Source: Thermogutta terrifontis (lineage in GTDB: Bacteria; Planctomycetota; Planctomycetia; Pirellulales; Thermoguttaceae). Taken from it: a stretch of DNA of 64,000 nt. Positions 22,178 through 28,405 of the stretch are shown here, piece by piece. Position 1 is the stretch's first letter, and every line of letters starts with the position of its first letter. Both the position numbers and the translations under genes were made by a program. The notes beneath the pieces were generated by a model, which did not search any database, was not told the origin of the DNA, and worked only from the letters and a program-made list of their open reading frames with translations. Location of the stretch: assembly GCF_002277955.1 (NCBI RefSeq), contig NZ_CP018477.1:2315206-2379205 (forward strand), given 5' to 3'.

Positions 22178-25100
22178 TTAACAGAAGTCACGAGATTGTC
22201 CTTCTAATCCTGCAAGTTTGCTGGAAAGATCTTCTAACCGCATGACAACAACGTGGATGACCCCACTCTGCTTTTGAAGCCGTCCTACCGCAAGGATGAG
22301 CGGTGCGTTGAGGGCAATGAGCCGCCACCGTTGCCATACATCAGGGCGGATGATCAGGTTAATCATCCCAGTCTCGTCTTCCAGGGTCATGAACGTGATT
22401 CCTCGGGCAGTGGAAGGTCTCTGACGCACGAGAACCATTCCCGCCACGCGCACAGGATGACCATCAGGAATGTCCTTCAATTTAATTGCTGGAACGACAC
22501 GTAGGCGGTTGAGCTCCGATCTGAGTAATCGTAAAGGATGCGCCTTCAAGGACACACCAAGCATGGAATAATCAGCGACTACTTCCTCAGCCATTGACAT
22601 TTGCGGCAGAAGAGACTTTTCTAAGGACTGATCTTTTGTATTCTGGTGTGAGGATTGGTCCGATGGATAATGAGCAGAACTCGTCTCCACGGTGGAGGTA
22701 AAAAGGGAAGGAGTTTCAGGAGCCATTTTCATGGCCAGCCAGAGGGCCTCGCGGCGCGTCAGGCCCAGTGAGGCAAAAGTATCTGCGCGGGCAAGACGGA
22801 CCACGGCAGACTTACTGAGTTGGGTTCTTTTCACGAACTCAGTGAGACTTGTAAAGGGGCCTTTCACTCGGGCTTCGATGATTTTTTCGGCGTCTGCTTG
22901 TCGCATGCCCTGGACCATGCGAAATCCCAGACGAATGGCTTTTACGGGGAAGAACGTTGATTCAGGGCAGAGTGGAAACTTATTGGTATTGCTTTCCAGA
23001 TGTGGGTTTGGAGAAGCGTGCCATGGACATGGACCCTCCCAGGGTATTTCCTTTGACAACGGCCATGGATTCTCTCCCTTTCTTTGAGAACGATCAGATG
23101 CAGAGATTGCCTCGGTCGCCAGTTTCGTGGGTGCATCCGCGTCTTCCAGATCGCTATCCCAGAAGCTGAAATTCACATCCACAGGCCGGACTTCGACCCC
23201 GTGACGCTGGGCATCTTCAATGAGTTGGGCCGGGGCGTAAAATCCCATCGGCTGGCTGTTGAGAAGTCCCACCGTAAAAGCCGCCTGGTAGTGATATTTG
23301 AGCCATGCAGAAACATAGACCAGCAGGGCAAAGCTGGCTGCGTGGGATTCTGGAAAACCGTAGTCCCCGAAACCACGAATTTGCTGGAATATGGCTTCGG
23401 CATATTCTGGACTAAAGCCATTGGAAAGCATGCCATCAATGAGTTTACGGCGAAATGCATCGATGAGGCCCGGTCTCCGCCATGCTCCCATAGCCCGGCG
23501 CAACTGGTCGGCCTCTCCCGGAGTAAATCCGGCCGCCACCATGGCAAGTCGCATCGCCTGTTCCTGAAAAAGGGGCACACCCAGGGTTTTGCCCAGCACC
23601 TCACGAATGGCCTCATTGGGATACGTGACAGGTTCCTCACCGGCACGGCGGCGTAAATAGGGGTGAACCATATTTCCCTGAATTGGGCCAGGACGCACAA
23701 TGGCCACTTCTATGACAAGATCGTAGAAGCACCGAGGTTGAAGTCGGGGCAGCATGCTCATTTGGGCGCGACTTTCAATTTGAAAGACACCCATCGTATC
23801 GGCACGGCGAATCATTTGATAAACCCCTTCATCTCCTTCAGGAACCGAGGCGAGGGTGATTTCCCGACCATAATGCTTTTTAATTGTCTGAAATGTCTTA
23901 CGAATAGCAGTCAGCATTCCCAAACATAGACAATCAACTTTGAGAATGCCCAGCTCATCAAGGTCGTCTTTATTCCACTGAATAACCGTTCGATCGGGCA
24001 TTGCCGCGTTCTCAAGCGGAACAAGTTCACACAGCGGCCCATGTGTGATGACCATCCCGCCCGTGTGCTGGGAGAGATGTCGGGGAAATCCCACCAGTGC
24101 GGTGGCCCATTCCACAAGGTGTCGGGTGGCAAGAGACTGGGTGTCAAATCCCGCTTCGCGGCAGCGTTCAAGGAGATCGGGCTCCTCGTGGAACCGCTCG
24201 ATTGTGCTCGCAAGGCGGTCCACCTCCTCCAGCGAAAAGCCCAGGGCCTTGCCCACATCCCTGACCGCAGAGCGAGGACGGTAGGTGATGACTTCGGCCG
24301 TCATCCCCGCACGTTCCCGTCCATATTTGTTATAAATATACTGAATAATTTCCTCCCGTCGTTCGTGCTCAAAATCCACATCGATATCGGGAGCTTCGTT
24401 GCGTTCTCGGCTGACAAAACGTTCAAACAGAAGATCCATGCGGTCAGGATCCACGGCAGTAATGCCCAGGCAGAAACACACTGCTGAATTGGCGGCGGAT
24501 CCCCGGCCCTGACAGAGAATGCCCCGACTCCGAGCAAAACGGACAAGATCCCACACAGTGAGAAAGTATGCCTCGTAGTGGAGTTCCCCGATAAGGCGAA
24601 GTTCATGTTCAAGGATCGAGCGAACCTTTTCAGGAATTCCCCGAGGATAGCGTTGGCGGGCTCCCTCCCACGTGAGATGGCGAAGATACTCCAGCGGCGT
24701 GTATCCAGGTGGAACTAATTCCTCGGGATATTCATACCGAAGTTCATCAAGTGAAAAGTGGGATTGCTCGGCAATTTCCGCGGCTCGCTCGCAAGCGTCC
24801 GGCGCGCGGTGCCACAACGCTCGCATTTCCTCAGGTGATTTCAGATATTTCTGGGCATTGGCAAACCGCTGCTCTCCGAGTTCATTGACCTTTATTCCCA
24901 TCCGGATGGCTGTGAGGATGTCGTACAAGGGAGCGCGAGAAGGATGGTGATAAAAAACATTCCCGTCGGCTACGAGCGGTAAATGGGATCGCTGCGACAG
25001 ACTTTGCAGCCACTCCAGGCGCCGGCGGTCGTTCGGGCCAAGGGAAAGTTCTCCCAAGAGATAGCCTCTTTTTGAGAAGACTTTCGCATACTGTTGAAGA

Positions 25101-25501
25101 TGGAAAAGAAGGGGCAGTCCTTTTGGGGCTTTTGGAATCACTCCCGCCAGAAGACCATCACTGTGTTCGACAATATCCTGAAAGGTGAGGCTGTACTGCC
25201 CCTTTTCGGCCTGGCACCGGCCCTTTGTGATGAGACGACAAAGCCGTCCATAGGAACGGCGATCAGTAGCCCATAGAACAACCGGCAAACTATCCTGTGG
25301 GTGAATCTCGGCACCCACGATGAGTTTCAGTCTCAGCTCTTTTGCGGTGATGTGGGCCCGAACAACTCCCGCCACACTGGCTTCATCGGTGATGGCCAAT
25401 CCTTTCAGCCCCAATTCTGCAGCCTGTTGAAAGAGTTCATCCGGATGGGAAGCCCCCTGAAGGAAAGAGAAATTTGTTTTGACATGAATATGATAATCCA
25501 T
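22178..25501 (-). CDS. dnaE2: Error-prone DNA polymerase III alpha subunit DnaE2 (ImuC)
   Basis: This 1107-residue C-family polymerase belongs to the mutagenic translesion complex ImuA-ImuB-DnaE2. A PHP domain opens the protein (DYHIHVKTNFSFLQGASHPDE). The palm motif PDIDVDF near residue 370 carries catalytic aspartates, and a C-terminal OB fold lies near 1010-1060 (VRVAGMVLVRQRPS). Length matches DnaE2 rather than the roughly 1160-residue replicative DnaE1. ATG 25501 was chosen because GGGGAG lies upstream at suitable spacing and it falls 16 bases after the imuB stop; longer in-frame extensions would overlap imuB. It is the last gene of the cassette and converges on the terminator of the HEAT-repeat gene. 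Confidence 0.95.
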   Translation of the reverse strand: MDYHIHVKTNFSFLQGASHPDELFQQAAELGLKGLAITDEASVAGVVRAHITAKELRLKLIVGAEIHPQDSLPVVLWATDRRSYGRLCRLITKGRCQAEKGQYSLTFQDIVEHSDGLLAGVIPKAPKGLPLLFHLQQYAKVFSKRGYLLGELSLGPNDRRRLEWLQSLSQRSHLPLVADGNVFYHHPSRAPLYDILTAIRMGIKVNELGEQRFANAQKYLKSPEEMRALWHRAPDACERAAEIAEQSHFSLDELRYEYPEELVPPGYTPLEYLRHLTWEGARQRYPRGIPEKVRSILEHELRLIGELHYEAYFLTVWDLVRFARSRGILCQGRGSAANSAVCFCLGITAVDPDRMDLLFERFVSRERNEAPDIDVDFEHERREEIIQYIYNKYGRERAGMTAEVITYRPRSAVRDVGKALGFSLEEVDRLASTIERFHEEPDLLERCREAGFDTQSLATRHLVEWATALVGFPRHLSQHTGGMVITHGPLCELVPLENAAMPDRTVIQWNKDDLDELGILKVDCLCLGMLTAIRKTFQTIKKHYGREITLASVPEGDEGVYQMIRRADTMGVFQIESRAQMSMLPRLQPRCFYDLVIEVAIVRPGPIQGNMVHPYLRRRAGEEPVTYPNEAIREVLGKTLGVPLFQEQAMRLAMVAAGFTPGEADQLRRAMGAWRRPGLIDAFRRKLIDGMLSNGFSPEYAEAIFQQIRGFGDYGFPESHAASFALLVYVSAWLKYHYQAAFTVGLLNSQPMGFYAPAQLIEDAQRHGVEVRPVDVNFSFWDSDLEDADAPTKLATEAISASDRSQRKGENPWPLSKEIPWEGPCPWHASPNPHLESNTNKFPLCPESTFFPVKAIRLGFRMVQGMRQADAEKIIEARVKGPFTSLTEFVKRTQLSKSAVVRLARADTFASLGLTRREALWLAMKMAPETPSLFTSTVETSSAHYPSDQSSHQNTKDQSLEKSLLPQMSMAEEVVADYSMLGVSLKAHPLRLLRSELNRLRVVPAIKLKDIPDGHPVRVAGMVLVRQRPSTARGITFMTLEDETGMINLIIRPDVWQRWRLIALNAPLILAVGRLQKQSGVIHVVVMRLEDLSSKLAGLEGQSRDFC

Positions 25502-25517: not shown

Positions 25518-26936
25518 TTAGAATATGCCATGAAGAAACCATTTTCCGGTGTAAAGGCAGCGATAAATCCAGAAATGTTCTCCGGCAGTCGTTTCAACCC
25601 GATAATAGTCACGCAGAATCGTGTCGCCGCGCCACCATCCGGTTTCAATTCGCTCTGGCCCCCAAAAACGCACGATTTCTTTGTTTTCCCCCCGATAAAA
25701 GAATCGATAGGGATGTCCTGAAGGAATCCCCATGACCACCTCAATCGGTGCAGGATTGTTCAAAAGCCGCAAAGGACGCGCTCCGGGAAGAGATGAGAAA
25801 GATAAGGATGAGCTCTTCTGTTTTCGCTCTCGATCGAGACAACTCCTCCATCTGGTCACATATTCCGGTGCATAATCCGGTTCAAGGAAGGCCTCAGAGA
25901 TTCGCTCTTTTCCCAACCGGGCAGCCAATCGCTCGAGAAGCTCTGTCCACTCCCGGGATGGGGAGGTGGCCGAGGGATGAAAGAGAGTCGATTGTCCCCA
26001 TTCGAGGGAGGCAGCACACGTCACCGCAACCGAGATTTGCGTAATAGGCCCTGGTAAACGTAGATGCTCTTTGTGTAACTGGAAAAGACTGTACAGTTTG
26101 TCCGCATTTACCGTAGGATGGATCAGATTGATCGTGATGGATAAAGGCTTTATATCGTCACAAAAGAAAGTTATGACTAACTCCAAGGCCCCCTGCCCTT
26201 TTTTGAGAAGATCGTTTGTTAATGTGTGCAAAAGTGCCGATATGTGTCCATCGATAATTTCGGCCAGTGCTGTGGGATATTCAAGATAGGCACTGTATTC
26301 GGATTTGGGTAAGGGATGATACGGAGGAAGAATTTCCTCGCGCTCTCCCAGGAGTTGCTGAATGCGAATGCCAAAGTCTTTTCCGAAACGTTCCTCCCAT
26401 TCAGAGAGAGGGATGCGGAGAACGTCTCCAATCGTATGACATCCCAGCTCATGACAGGTAGCATGCCATTCCTCCTTGCCCCGAATGGCTTCCACAGGAA
26501 GGGAGTGCAGCCAGTATCGCATCTTTCCCGGGGGAATAATCCATCCCTGAGATAGGTGATGATTTCTTTCAAGGGAGACGAAATGGGTAAAGGCCCAGCC
26601 GGCCGACGCGGTTTCGGTGATCGCAATCACAACTGGATGAAATCCTTGCCGATAACATTCTCCTATCAGATGGATGATGAATGCCTGTTCATCGTTAATG
26701 AGGTGAGGCACATGAGTAAGATCGAGGAATAATGTGTCAGAAGGGGAAAGCGAGTCAAAATAAATGTGAGGAGTATATCGAGTACAAAATTCCGCAAGAT
26801 GGAGCAAAAGGAGTTCCTGGTTGTTCTGGTCCGTGCTGCGAGGGGGATTATGCCCGAAGTGATGCTCCTTTGAAGGATGGGCTTTGGGAGAGGGATGGGG
26901 TTGCAAAAGTCTGAGACAGAGGATCCGCCGGATCAT
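25518..26936 (-). CDS. imuB: ImuB-like inactive Y-family polymerase homologue
   Basis: ImuB is a catalytically dead DinB/UmuC relative that links the beta clamp, ImuA and DnaE2 during mutagenic repair. The 472-residue protein starts MIRRILCLRL, where active Y-family enzymes have the catalytic DxDxFFA motif, and the second acidic pair is also absent, as expected for ImuB. The C-terminal tail (WIYRCLYTGKWFLHGIF) is typical. Its start overlaps the imuA end by 89 bases in another frame, so an internal start is possible. Two sampled 60-base blocks (26101-26220) have 25 G+C each, far below flanking genes. It lies in the order imuA-imuB-dnaE2. Confidence 0.9.
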   Translation of the reverse strand: MIRRILCLRLLQPHPSPKAHPSKEHHFGHNPPRSTDQNNQELLLLHLAEFCTRYTPHIYFDSLSPSDTLFLDLTHVPHLINDEQAFIIHLIGECYRQGFHPVVIAITETASAGWAFTHFVSLERNHHLSQGWIIPPGKMRYWLHSLPVEAIRGKEEWHATCHELGCHTIGDVLRIPLSEWEERFGKDFGIRIQQLLGEREEILPPYHPLPKSEYSAYLEYPTALAEIIDGHISALLHTLTNDLLKKGQGALELVITFFCDDIKPLSITINLIHPTVNADKLYSLFQLHKEHLRLPGPITQISVAVTCAASLEWGQSTLFHPSATSPSREWTELLERLAARLGKERISEAFLEPDYAPEYVTRWRSCLDRERKQKSSSLSFSSLPGARPLRLLNNPAPIEVVMGIPSGHPYRFFYRGENKEIVRFWGPERIETGWWRGDTILRDYYRVETTAGEHFWIYRCLYTGKWFLHGIF

Positions 26937-27708
26937 CGATCAGCACCTCCCCTGCAATGTTTTCCCATTGACCGCGAGCCCGAAGCACGCTCACCTGGAT
27001 ACGCCGACGCTGAGAAGTGTCCCGAGCACAGGCTGCCGGCTGGGGTTGAACAAGAAAGCGTACCTGGGCCCAGGAAATCTCGTTGATTGCCTGGAACGGC
27101 CGAACGAAAATTCCCACGGTGAAACCCTGTTCAGCGGCGAGTTGAAAGCGACGAGCGGTTTTCGTGTCCAGGCGGTCGATGTGTGCCCAAAGGGCCCCTG
27201 TGGCAGAACAGCGAAGCACTTGAGTGATGGCCCAGTAAGCGTCCTTTGTGGAAGCGGGGTGAAGGAAGATGGTTCGTTGGAGATCGATCCCCAGATACAC
27301 CAAGCCTGGAGGATAGATTTCCTGAGTTGGGTCAACAATGACGAGATGGCCCTTCCGCTGCACTGCGATAGACCAGGCCATTCGCAGAGAAAGACATTCT
27401 CCTCCTGTGCCTTCTGTGGGGATCAGCCATTCAACAAAACCGCCTGGAAAAATTCTTTTTTGGGGAAGGAGGGCGTCCACTTCCGGCAGGCCTGTGGAAA
27501 TCCCTTCGGAGGGAGAATGCACCTGCCGACGCGAAACCGCCTCTATTTGCTGGCGAAGAGCGGCCACGAGAAGACTCCGAGAGTCCCCTGCCTGCTGCGA
27601 GGAAGTCGGAGGAGCCTTCACATGGTCTCCATAATTTCCCAGGGAAGTATTCTCTTGAGGAATCCCGAGGGAGTCTGCCGAAGGTATAAAGACATCGATG
27701 CTAGCCAT
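26848..27708 (-). CDS. imuA: ImuA-like RecA-fold protein of the mutasome
   Basis: ImuA is the RecA-like accessory factor of the ImuABC mutasome. This 286-residue protein has the RecA-like entry GISTGLPEVDALLPQKRIFPG, the hydrophobic strand HLVIVDPTQEIYPPGL and a variable C-terminus. The Walker A position reads PTEGTGGECLS, lacking the GK[ST] of ATP-hydrolysing RecA. ATG 27708 was chosen because GGAGGTGA lies 4 bases upstream; an upstream in-frame ATG has no such site. The promoter and two palindromes that may bind LexA lie within 75 bases upstream. First gene of the cassette. Confidence 0.88.
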   Translation of the reverse strand: MASIDVFIPSADSLGIPQENTSLGNYGDHVKAPPTSSQQAGDSRSLLVAALRQQIEAVSRRQVHSPSEGISTGLPEVDALLPQKRIFPGGFVEWLIPTEGTGGECLSLRMAWSIAVQRKGHLVIVDPTQEIYPPGLVYLGIDLQRTIFLHPASTKDAYWAITQVLRCSATGALWAHIDRLDTKTARRFQLAAEQGFTVGIFVRPFQAINEISWAQVRFLVQPQPAACARDTSQRRRIQVSVLRARGQWENIAGEVLIDDPADPLSQTFATPSLSQSPSFKGASLRA

Positions 27709-27726
27709 GCTGTCACCTCCATGTAT

Positions 27727-27755
27727 AGTGTACATCTGTACCCTATCTTCGTCAA
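27727..27755 (-). promoter_or_regulatory. Promoter of the imuA-imuB-dnaE2 cassette
   Basis: On the minus strand TTGACG (-35, 5 of 6) is followed after exactly 17 bases by TACACT (-10, 4 of 6), and transcription would begin about 10 bases before the imuA ribosome site. The palindrome GTACA-GA-TGTAC overlaps the spacer and -10 box. Confidence 0.65.
27730..27741. promoter_or_regulatory. Palindromic candidate operator inside the imuA promoter
   Basis: GTACATCTGTAC is a perfect inverted repeat (GTACA/TGTAC, 2-base centre) covering the spacer and overlapping the -10 box, the classical place for a repressor. From memory, it resembles the cyanobacterial LexA motif GTAC-N4-GTWC. That a LexA binds it is inference. 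Confidence 0.5.
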
Positions 27756-27767
27756 TTTGCATCGATG

Positions 27768-27781
27768 TGTTCATGTGAACA
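27768..27781. promoter_or_regulatory. LexA-like palindrome TGTTC-N4-GAACA upstream of imuA
   Basis: TGTTCATGTGAACA lies 12 bases upstream of the -35 box. Its arms TGTTC and GAACA are perfectly complementary. The pattern equals the motif I recall being reported for LexA of Verrucomicrobia, a sister phylum. SOS control of imuABC cassettes is well known in other phyla; binding here is inference. Confidence 0.5.
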
Positions 27782-27916: not shown

Positions 27917-28405
27917 ATGAGTGAAATCGAAGAACTTCGCCAGCAGTTGAGAGATGCCTACAAAAACCGGGCGATGATCTATTACCATATCTACGAAGAG
28001 CTATCCCGGGAACTTGGGCCGGAGCGTGCTGAGCAGATTATGAAACGGGCCATTTATCGCCGCGGGCAGGAGCGGGGGCAGGCCTTCCGCCAGTTTGCCC
28101 CCGCCAATCTTGCGGGACTGCGTGAGGCATTTTTGGGCCATCTGCCCGATCAGGGACGGCTTTTCGAGCCTGAAGTCCTGGCCCACGATGAGACGCGTCT
28201 GGATATCAAATTCCACCGTTGTCCCCTGCGAGAAGCCTGGGTGGAAGCGGGCTTGCCCGACGATCTCGTGGCCACTCTCTGTCGAATTGCTGCTGAGGTG
28301 GATTACGGGTTATTTCAGGAGGCTGGATTTAAGTTTTTTGCCGACACATGGCAGCCAGGAGGCGAAGGGTGCTGTTGCCTGCACATCCGTCCCGGAACAG
28401 GGTGA
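27917..28405 (+). CDS. L-2-amino-thiazoline-4-carboxylic acid hydrolase-like protein
   Basis: The 162-residue soluble protein matches the ATC-hydrolase-like family in pattern: an N-terminal helical region (EIEELRQQLRDAYKNRAM), the motif HRCPLREAWVEAGLP, then LCRIAAEVDYGLF and the C-terminal EGCCCLHI. Family members act on amino-thiazoline or other small substrates, but most are uncharacterised, so the substrate is unknown. ATG 27917 has GAGGGAGAA close upstream; a longer in-frame opening at 27830 lacks a ribosome site. It is divergent from imuA and lies 90 bases before a quinone-reductase-like gene. Confidence 0.7.
   Translation: MSEIEELRQQLRDAYKNRAMIYYHIYEELSRELGPERAEQIMKRAIYRRGQERGQAFRQFAPANLAGLREAFLGHLPDQGRLFEPEVLAHDETRLDIKFHRCPLREAWVEAGLPDDLVATLCRIAAEVDYGLFQEAGFKFFADTWQPGGEGCCCLHIRPGTG

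Follow-up and report, generated by a model that had tools for sequence, protein, structure and literature searches.

Predicted LexA-type boxes at the imuA-imuB-dnaE2 promoter of Thermogutta terrifontis and their counterparts in related planctomycetes

The mutasome operon and the dyads at its promoter

The window, a 64,000-nucleotide stretch of the Thermogutta terrifontis genome, carries three consecutive minus-strand genes that make up an ImuA-ImuB-DnaE2 mutasome operon. The first, imuA (26848–27708, 286 aa), matches NF033429 with E = 2.7e-28 and 99 bits, short of the curated cut-off of 150, and was assigned with the help of its operon context. The second (25518–26936) encodes an imuB-like Y-family protein, recognized by its place in the operon and by weak similarity to a polymerase IV profile (E = 8.9e-6); no Pfam match to it was found. 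The third, dnaE2 (imuC; 22178–25501, start placed by eye at MDYHIHVK), encodes an error-prone DNA polymerase III alpha subunit and scores 1401 bits against NF004225 (cut-off 939). With ImuA scoring below its NCBIfam cut-off and the polymerase match of ImuB being weak, both names depend in part on the operon context. An alternative in-frame ATG for imuA lies upstream at 27774; the start was taken at 27708 because a ribosome-binding site, GGAGGTG (27714–27720, read directly), is found there. Many bacteria have imuA-imuB-dnaE2 as a cassette under LexA control (PMC6511836, PMC3919608).

On the minus strand, the promoter region runs from a distal dyad, TGTTCACATGAACA (TGTTC-ACAT-GAACA, 27768–27781), through 12 nt to the −35 hexamer TTGACG (27750–27755), and through 17 nt to the −10 hexamer TACACT (27727–27732) with a proximal dyad, GGTACAGATGTACA (GGTAC-AGAT-GTACA, 27729–27742), over it, followed by GGAGGTG and the imuA ATG. 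The −35 is a sequence reading, and TTGAC is kept at equal distance in the imuA promoters of relatives. The proximal dyad, a predicted 14-bp LexA operator also on the minus strand, contains the 12-mer core GTACA-GA-TGTAC (27730–27741) and overlaps the −10 with its edge, as expected of an SOS operator, which lies over or abuts its promoter. The distal dyad is a candidate second LexA operator, centred 39 bp from the proximal one. An earlier note on this DNA had described the promoter, a GTACA-N2-TGTAC palindrome over it and TGTTC-N4-GAACA 12 bases upstream of the −35, and all of these are exact to the base. The divergent neighbour of imuA (27917–28402) matches PF14196, an ATC hydrolase family; its start is 135 bp away from the distal dyad, which lies upstream of it and may be common to both genes.

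Both dyads have the geometry GTWC-N4-GWAC. Because they share one register, they were read as two forms of a single 14-bp dyad, TGTWC-N4-GWACA, and the sequences are better seen in this way than as two kinds of box; two separate motif families were rejected on account of the common register and spacing. The proximal site has one mismatch to TGTWCN4GWACA, its outer G. A scoring matrix was built from the lexA and imuA sites of relatives, with those of T. terrifontis left out, and a threshold of at least 10 bits was used. Of all 14-mers in the 64-kb window, the proximal site scores highest with this matrix, which draws on other genomes alone (17.7 bits, the next being 11.4), and the distal site ranks fifth (8.7 bits).

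The earlier note had likened the proximal palindrome to a cyanobacterial LexA box and the distal one to a Verrucomicrobia box. Erill et al. are said to have described, in 2016, the Verrucomicrobia box as TGTTC-N4-GAACA; the distal imuA and recA sites agree exactly with this consensus, whereas the lexA site, the proximal imuA site and the sites at lexA in relatives depart from it. The cyanobacterial box, RGTACNNNDGTWCB (AGTACWNWTGTACT; PMC3091678), has the same GTAC-N4-GTWC core and spacing, but here T and A prevail at the outer positions, and GTATA closes the usual form at lexA of the relatives. By eye on the minus strand, the proximal site fits 13 of the 14 positions, and the T. terrifontis lexA site starts with T rather than R. 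The Bacillus subtilis box, quoted in the same source as CGAACN4GTTCG, likewise pairs two short arms across a 4-bp spacer, but its arm sequence differs.

LexA motifs vary among bacterial groups, and a 2021 paper counted 17 (PMC8565304). A 2011 study (PMC3108266) states that LexA of Planctomycetes does not recognize the E. coli motif. No definition of a planctomycete LexA motif was found in the titles, abstract openings and text passages searched, which include few subscription papers.

Boxes elsewhere in the genome

The T. terrifontis genome is a single contig of 4.81 Mb. The core GTACANNTGTAC (GTACA-N2-TGTAC) occurs at four sites, compared with one for the reversed control: in the imuA promoter, in the lexA promoter, before an HTH gene and inside a reading frame. 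The lexA-promoter site, TGTACACTTGTACA, begins 174 bp before the lexA start, so that the same box is present at the gene of its predicted repressor. The TGTTCN4GAACA form occurs ten times (reversed control, two); the imuA and recA promoters hold one each, and copies of one repeat account for four more; most of the matches other than imuA and recA are coding or repeat copies. The recA site, TGTTCATTTGAACA, has the TGTTC form and begins 73 bp before the recA start both here and in the nearest relative, G001. The anticipated recurrence is seen: lexA has the GTAC form and recA the TGTTC form. A short segment at 356262–356333 of the contig, some 3 kb beyond the downstream end of recA, shares 92% identity with residues 333–356 of RecA.

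The combined pattern TGTWCN4GWACA has 19 genome sites, and the reversed pattern five. Six are in front of genes, namely recA, lexA, imuA (the distal site), an IrrE/ImmA-like M78 gene, nrdJ and an HTH gene; five are copies of one repeat, seven are in long reading frames (L007, L008, L011, L149, L150, L152 and L153) and one (L014) was left unassigned. The site of the IrrE-like gene, 47 nt in front of it, is the mixed form TGTACATTTGAACA. The start of nrdJ, which encodes a B12-dependent ribonucleotide reductase, was taken at MAQENH. The relaxed pattern KRTACN4GTAYA showed no genome-wide excess over its reversed control (9 and 11 against 15 and 10), and excess as a proof was dropped for this pattern; its signal lies in position, not number. 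Its matches L359–L361, L363–L365 and L367 fall within long reading frames of either strand or of both, and the operator count leaves them out.

Two other sets of sites were observed. The HTH gene among these six opens a phage-head cluster (L274:811–16425, 493.8–509.4 kb of the contig) with small and large terminase subunits, portal and head protein; TGTACATATGTACA, which precedes its first gene, is the best LexA-like site among the T. terrifontis loci scored (20.8 bits), raising the question of whether DNA damage induces the cluster as a prophage or a gene transfer agent. A repeated gene carries TGTTCAAACGAACA, or a form differing in one base, in several copies (L009, L012, L013, L015 and L148). 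L015 matches PF00589 integrase, and for L009 and L148 the shorter frames gave no match; these recurrences are probably repeat copies and not regulation.

Conservation of the box in relatives

Thermogutta is placed in the order Pirellulales (NCBI), and we infer that the other same-order genomes compared are Pirellulales as well. Sixty genomes, including that of T. terrifontis, were searched for LexA; 56 had a match at E ≤ 0.001, some of them a weak match to the S24 domain only. Four loci with divergent LexA proteins (L062–L065) were dropped, and lexA of G038, at a contig end, was left out. In 43 lexA promoters outside the genus, TGTACN4GTATA was found in exact form in 29, with one mismatch in nine and with two in five. 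A TTGAY- or TTGY-like −35 lies within 9 nt upstream in 37 of the 43, and a second copy of the box follows 15 bp on in 12. Same-genus G003 has only a degenerate site in its lexA promoter. A second set, of named planctomycetes, comprised 80 lexA loci, 79 with enough upstream DNA (L209 was too short), of which 18 duplicate the first set. Exact TGTACN4GTAYA lies within 350 bp before 48 of 61 non-duplicate lexA genes (59/79 with duplicates), and the reversed control occurs before none of the 79. The form conserved among relatives is the proximal type.

A match to imuA was found in 33 of the 60 genomes, the weakest matches being at recA loci; L067 (no upstream DNA) and L095 (a RecA-like match) were dropped. 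A composite of promoter and box, in which TTGAC or TGGAC is followed after 16–18 nt by a −10 with the box in between, was present in 20 of 28 imuA promoters, that of T. terrifontis included. In an alignment of 23 of 27 promoters, chosen by box pattern and without T. terrifontis, the box carries 1.24 bits per position compared with about 0.1 in the flanks. The −35 stands out as well, having been loosely used in choosing among matches.

The palindrome might be a by-product of promoter sequence, with TGTACACT as an extended −10, since one half-site overlaps the −10 at imuA and, as read here, at lexA. Nevertheless, conservation in the imuA alignment extends to the second half-site, beyond the −10, the box of the IrrE-like gene is downstream of the −10 as read here, and the control promoters of glnA lack the box (none of 30 at ≥10 bits, one of 30 at ≥8 bits), making this explanation scarcely credible. 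The conserved glnA dyads are unrelated to the box (GCAA-N6-TGCC in 12/29).

An operator reading is further supported by other damage-response genes. Sites of at least 10 bits were found at 43/46 lexA and 23/28 imuA promoters, both partly in the training set, and, for genes outside it, at 22/58 recA, 19/29 nrdJ (one short upstream region left out) and 19/20 irrE-like promoters. The latter two genes were chosen because T. terrifontis has a site there, and both sets include T. terrifontis and G001. At ≥8 bits the count for recA rises to 33/58; the T. terrifontis recA site itself scores only 8.3 bits. Compared with shuffled sequences, 21/30 nrdJ and 19/20 irrE-like promoters reached p ≤ 0.05, and a matrix from lexA sites only gave p ≤ 0.05 for 22/28 imuA and 35/50 recA promoters. 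A matrix-free dyad count returned parts of the box among the commonest dyads of imuA, and also of irrE and lexA, joined with −10 or −35 letters; nrdJ and recA gave partly other dyads. The irrE-like gene (PF06114; contig 1048406–1049131 in T. terrifontis) was observed in 32 of the 60 genomes, T. terrifontis among them, and the 19 of 20 promoters with a LexA-type box (L309–L328) also include that of T. terrifontis. Its protein has the motif HExGE, invariant in 14 sequences, which differs from the HExxH of M78 proteins.

The TGTTC form has a narrower distribution. Within 450 bp upstream of 50 + 80 lexA, 58 recA, 29 imuA, 30 nrdJ and 20 irrE-like loci, exact TGTTC-N4-GAACA was found only at imuA of T. 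terrifontis and at recA of T. terrifontis and G001; the contig of G001 ends inside imuA, before the region of the distal site. The proximal type recurs at other imuA genes, but the distal form, among 29 imuA loci, does not. Only the proximal site might then be a LexA operator, the distal one being a chance palindrome or the site of another regulator: the lexA and imuA sites of relatives are mostly of the GTAC/ATAC type, the distal site ranks fifth in the window, and its other genomic matches are mostly coding or repeat copies. Against this, the same form precedes recA in both T. terrifontis and G001 while having only ten matches in 4.81 Mb, and the mixed site TGTACATTTGAACA precedes a gene whose orthologues carry LexA-type boxes. 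We regard the restriction to the proximal site as unlikely, though with an appreciable chance of being right. As a LexA operator, the proximal site is strongly supported by comparison of sequences; the distal site is a candidate that rests mainly on its recA counterpart.

LexA and the proposed control of the mutasome

T. terrifontis encodes one LexA. The protein gives the single PF01726 match of the genome and passes TIGR00498, and it combines an HTH with a self-cleaving S24 peptidase domain. The Ala-Gly of the cleavage site and the catalytic Ser and Lys are invariant columns in an alignment of 20 LexA orthologues. The best 80 of 562 confirmed LexA loci are from planctomycetes, including Bythopirellula, Botrimarina, Lacipirellula, Adhaeretor and Aeoliella; among the named matches listed, LexA of Thermogutta sp. 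MAG-77 is the closest (94% identity). Since neither a lack of recurrence at lexA and recA nor a lack of LexA, the two outcomes named in the earlier note as counting against it, was found, its interpretation of the dyads as the SOS operator of the lineage is supported for T. terrifontis, with putative boxes at lexA, imuA, recA, nrdJ and the IrrE-like gene.

The box at recA (p ≤ 0.05) accompanies LexA: it was found in 36 of 45 genomes with an orthologue of T. terrifontis LexA compared with 2 of 13 without (Fisher p 4e-5). The latter class means no orthologue, as G022 and G024 have divergent LexA-like proteins (36–38% identity) and G026 has a fragment with a stop; its two genomes with a recA box, G016 (87% complete) and G026 (79% complete), were kept in the count. 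In the RecA tree, seven of the 13 form one clade, and a tree-aware test of the association was not significant, with two independent pairs. Co-occurrence as independent proof is weakened by this tree, and the association is supporting evidence only. The seven (G011, G012, G020, G023, G027, G031 and G034) belong to the same family and lie on one side of a RecA-tree branch; their recA promoters are without the box.

A damage regulator other than LexA could bind the box, as the link to LexA is drawn from sequence and nine of the 45 LexA-bearing genomes, same-genus G003 among them, have no recA box. Nevertheless, regular sites lie in the promoter of lexA itself, as autoregulation predicts, and the recA box is rare where LexA is missing, a point weakened by relatedness; such a regulator is highly improbable. 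LexA is the preferred regulator, and the sites are very probably LexA operators of an SOS response that would release translesion synthesis after DNA damage. We infer LexA binding, repression, induction and any cooperation between the two sites.

The dyad TGTWC-N4-GWACA, 14 bp long, would hold a LexA dimer. As at known LexA operators, the repressor at the proximal dyad would cover the −10, block RNA polymerase and keep imuA-imuB-dnaE2 silent; a second dimer probably binds the distal site, upstream of the −35, tightening repression. DNA damage would activate RecA, LexA would cleave itself and the operators would be vacated, so that the mutasome could be made along with LexA, RecA, the B12-dependent ribonucleotide reductase and the IrrE-like protein. 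The predicted regulon comprises lexA, recA, imuA-imuB-dnaE2, nrdJ and the IrrE-like gene, and the box is read as a lineage variant of the LexA operator. A defined operator would make the planctomycete SOS regulon predictable and testable, with added candidate members.

The recognition helix differs in T. terrifontis and G001. The two residues before a conserved His are Met-Cys in 13 and Val-Cys in five of the 20 aligned orthologues and Arg-Gly in these two, Arg51-Gly52 in Thermogutta LexA. In the LexA chain 7b5g, which has E. coli numbering and which we take to be the E. coli protein, the corresponding residues are Glu44 and Glu45. Both glutamates are listed among DNA-contacting LexA residues in PMC3091678. 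Arg-Gly LexA and TGTTC-N4-GAACA at recA coincide in the same two genomes, which counts as one observation because both are of one lineage. Taken together, a tentative reading, with chances slightly below even, is of a so far undescribed Pirellulales operator TGTAC-N4-GTAYA, with a core regulon that includes the IrrE/ImmA-like M78 protein with invariant HExGE, and of a Thermogutta operator in transition, with Arg-Gly for the usual Met/Val-Cys of LexA and additional use of Verrucomicrobia-type TGTTC-N4-GAACA at recA and imuA. If so, Thermogutta would capture the conversion of one LexA motif into another midway. A single promoter with both forms could throw light on changes in LexA specificity.

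Extension of the box beyond the order is unsupported, as sites fade in other orders and classes. A phylum-wide search matched 128 genomes, for which 30 loci were listed. At six of these, from a different order within the class (L246–L251), LexA has the same helix and the best sites score 0.6–11.2 bits, one of the six over 10, and 22 loci of other classes (L252–L273) have a different recognition helix and no site reaching 5 bits. In six loci of other Planctomycetota with a different LexA helix (L255, L259, L260, L263, L269 and L270), direct repeats were noticed by eye before lexA, for example GTTGGGTATTTGTTGGGTATAC in L270; they are a candidate direct-repeat LexA operator.
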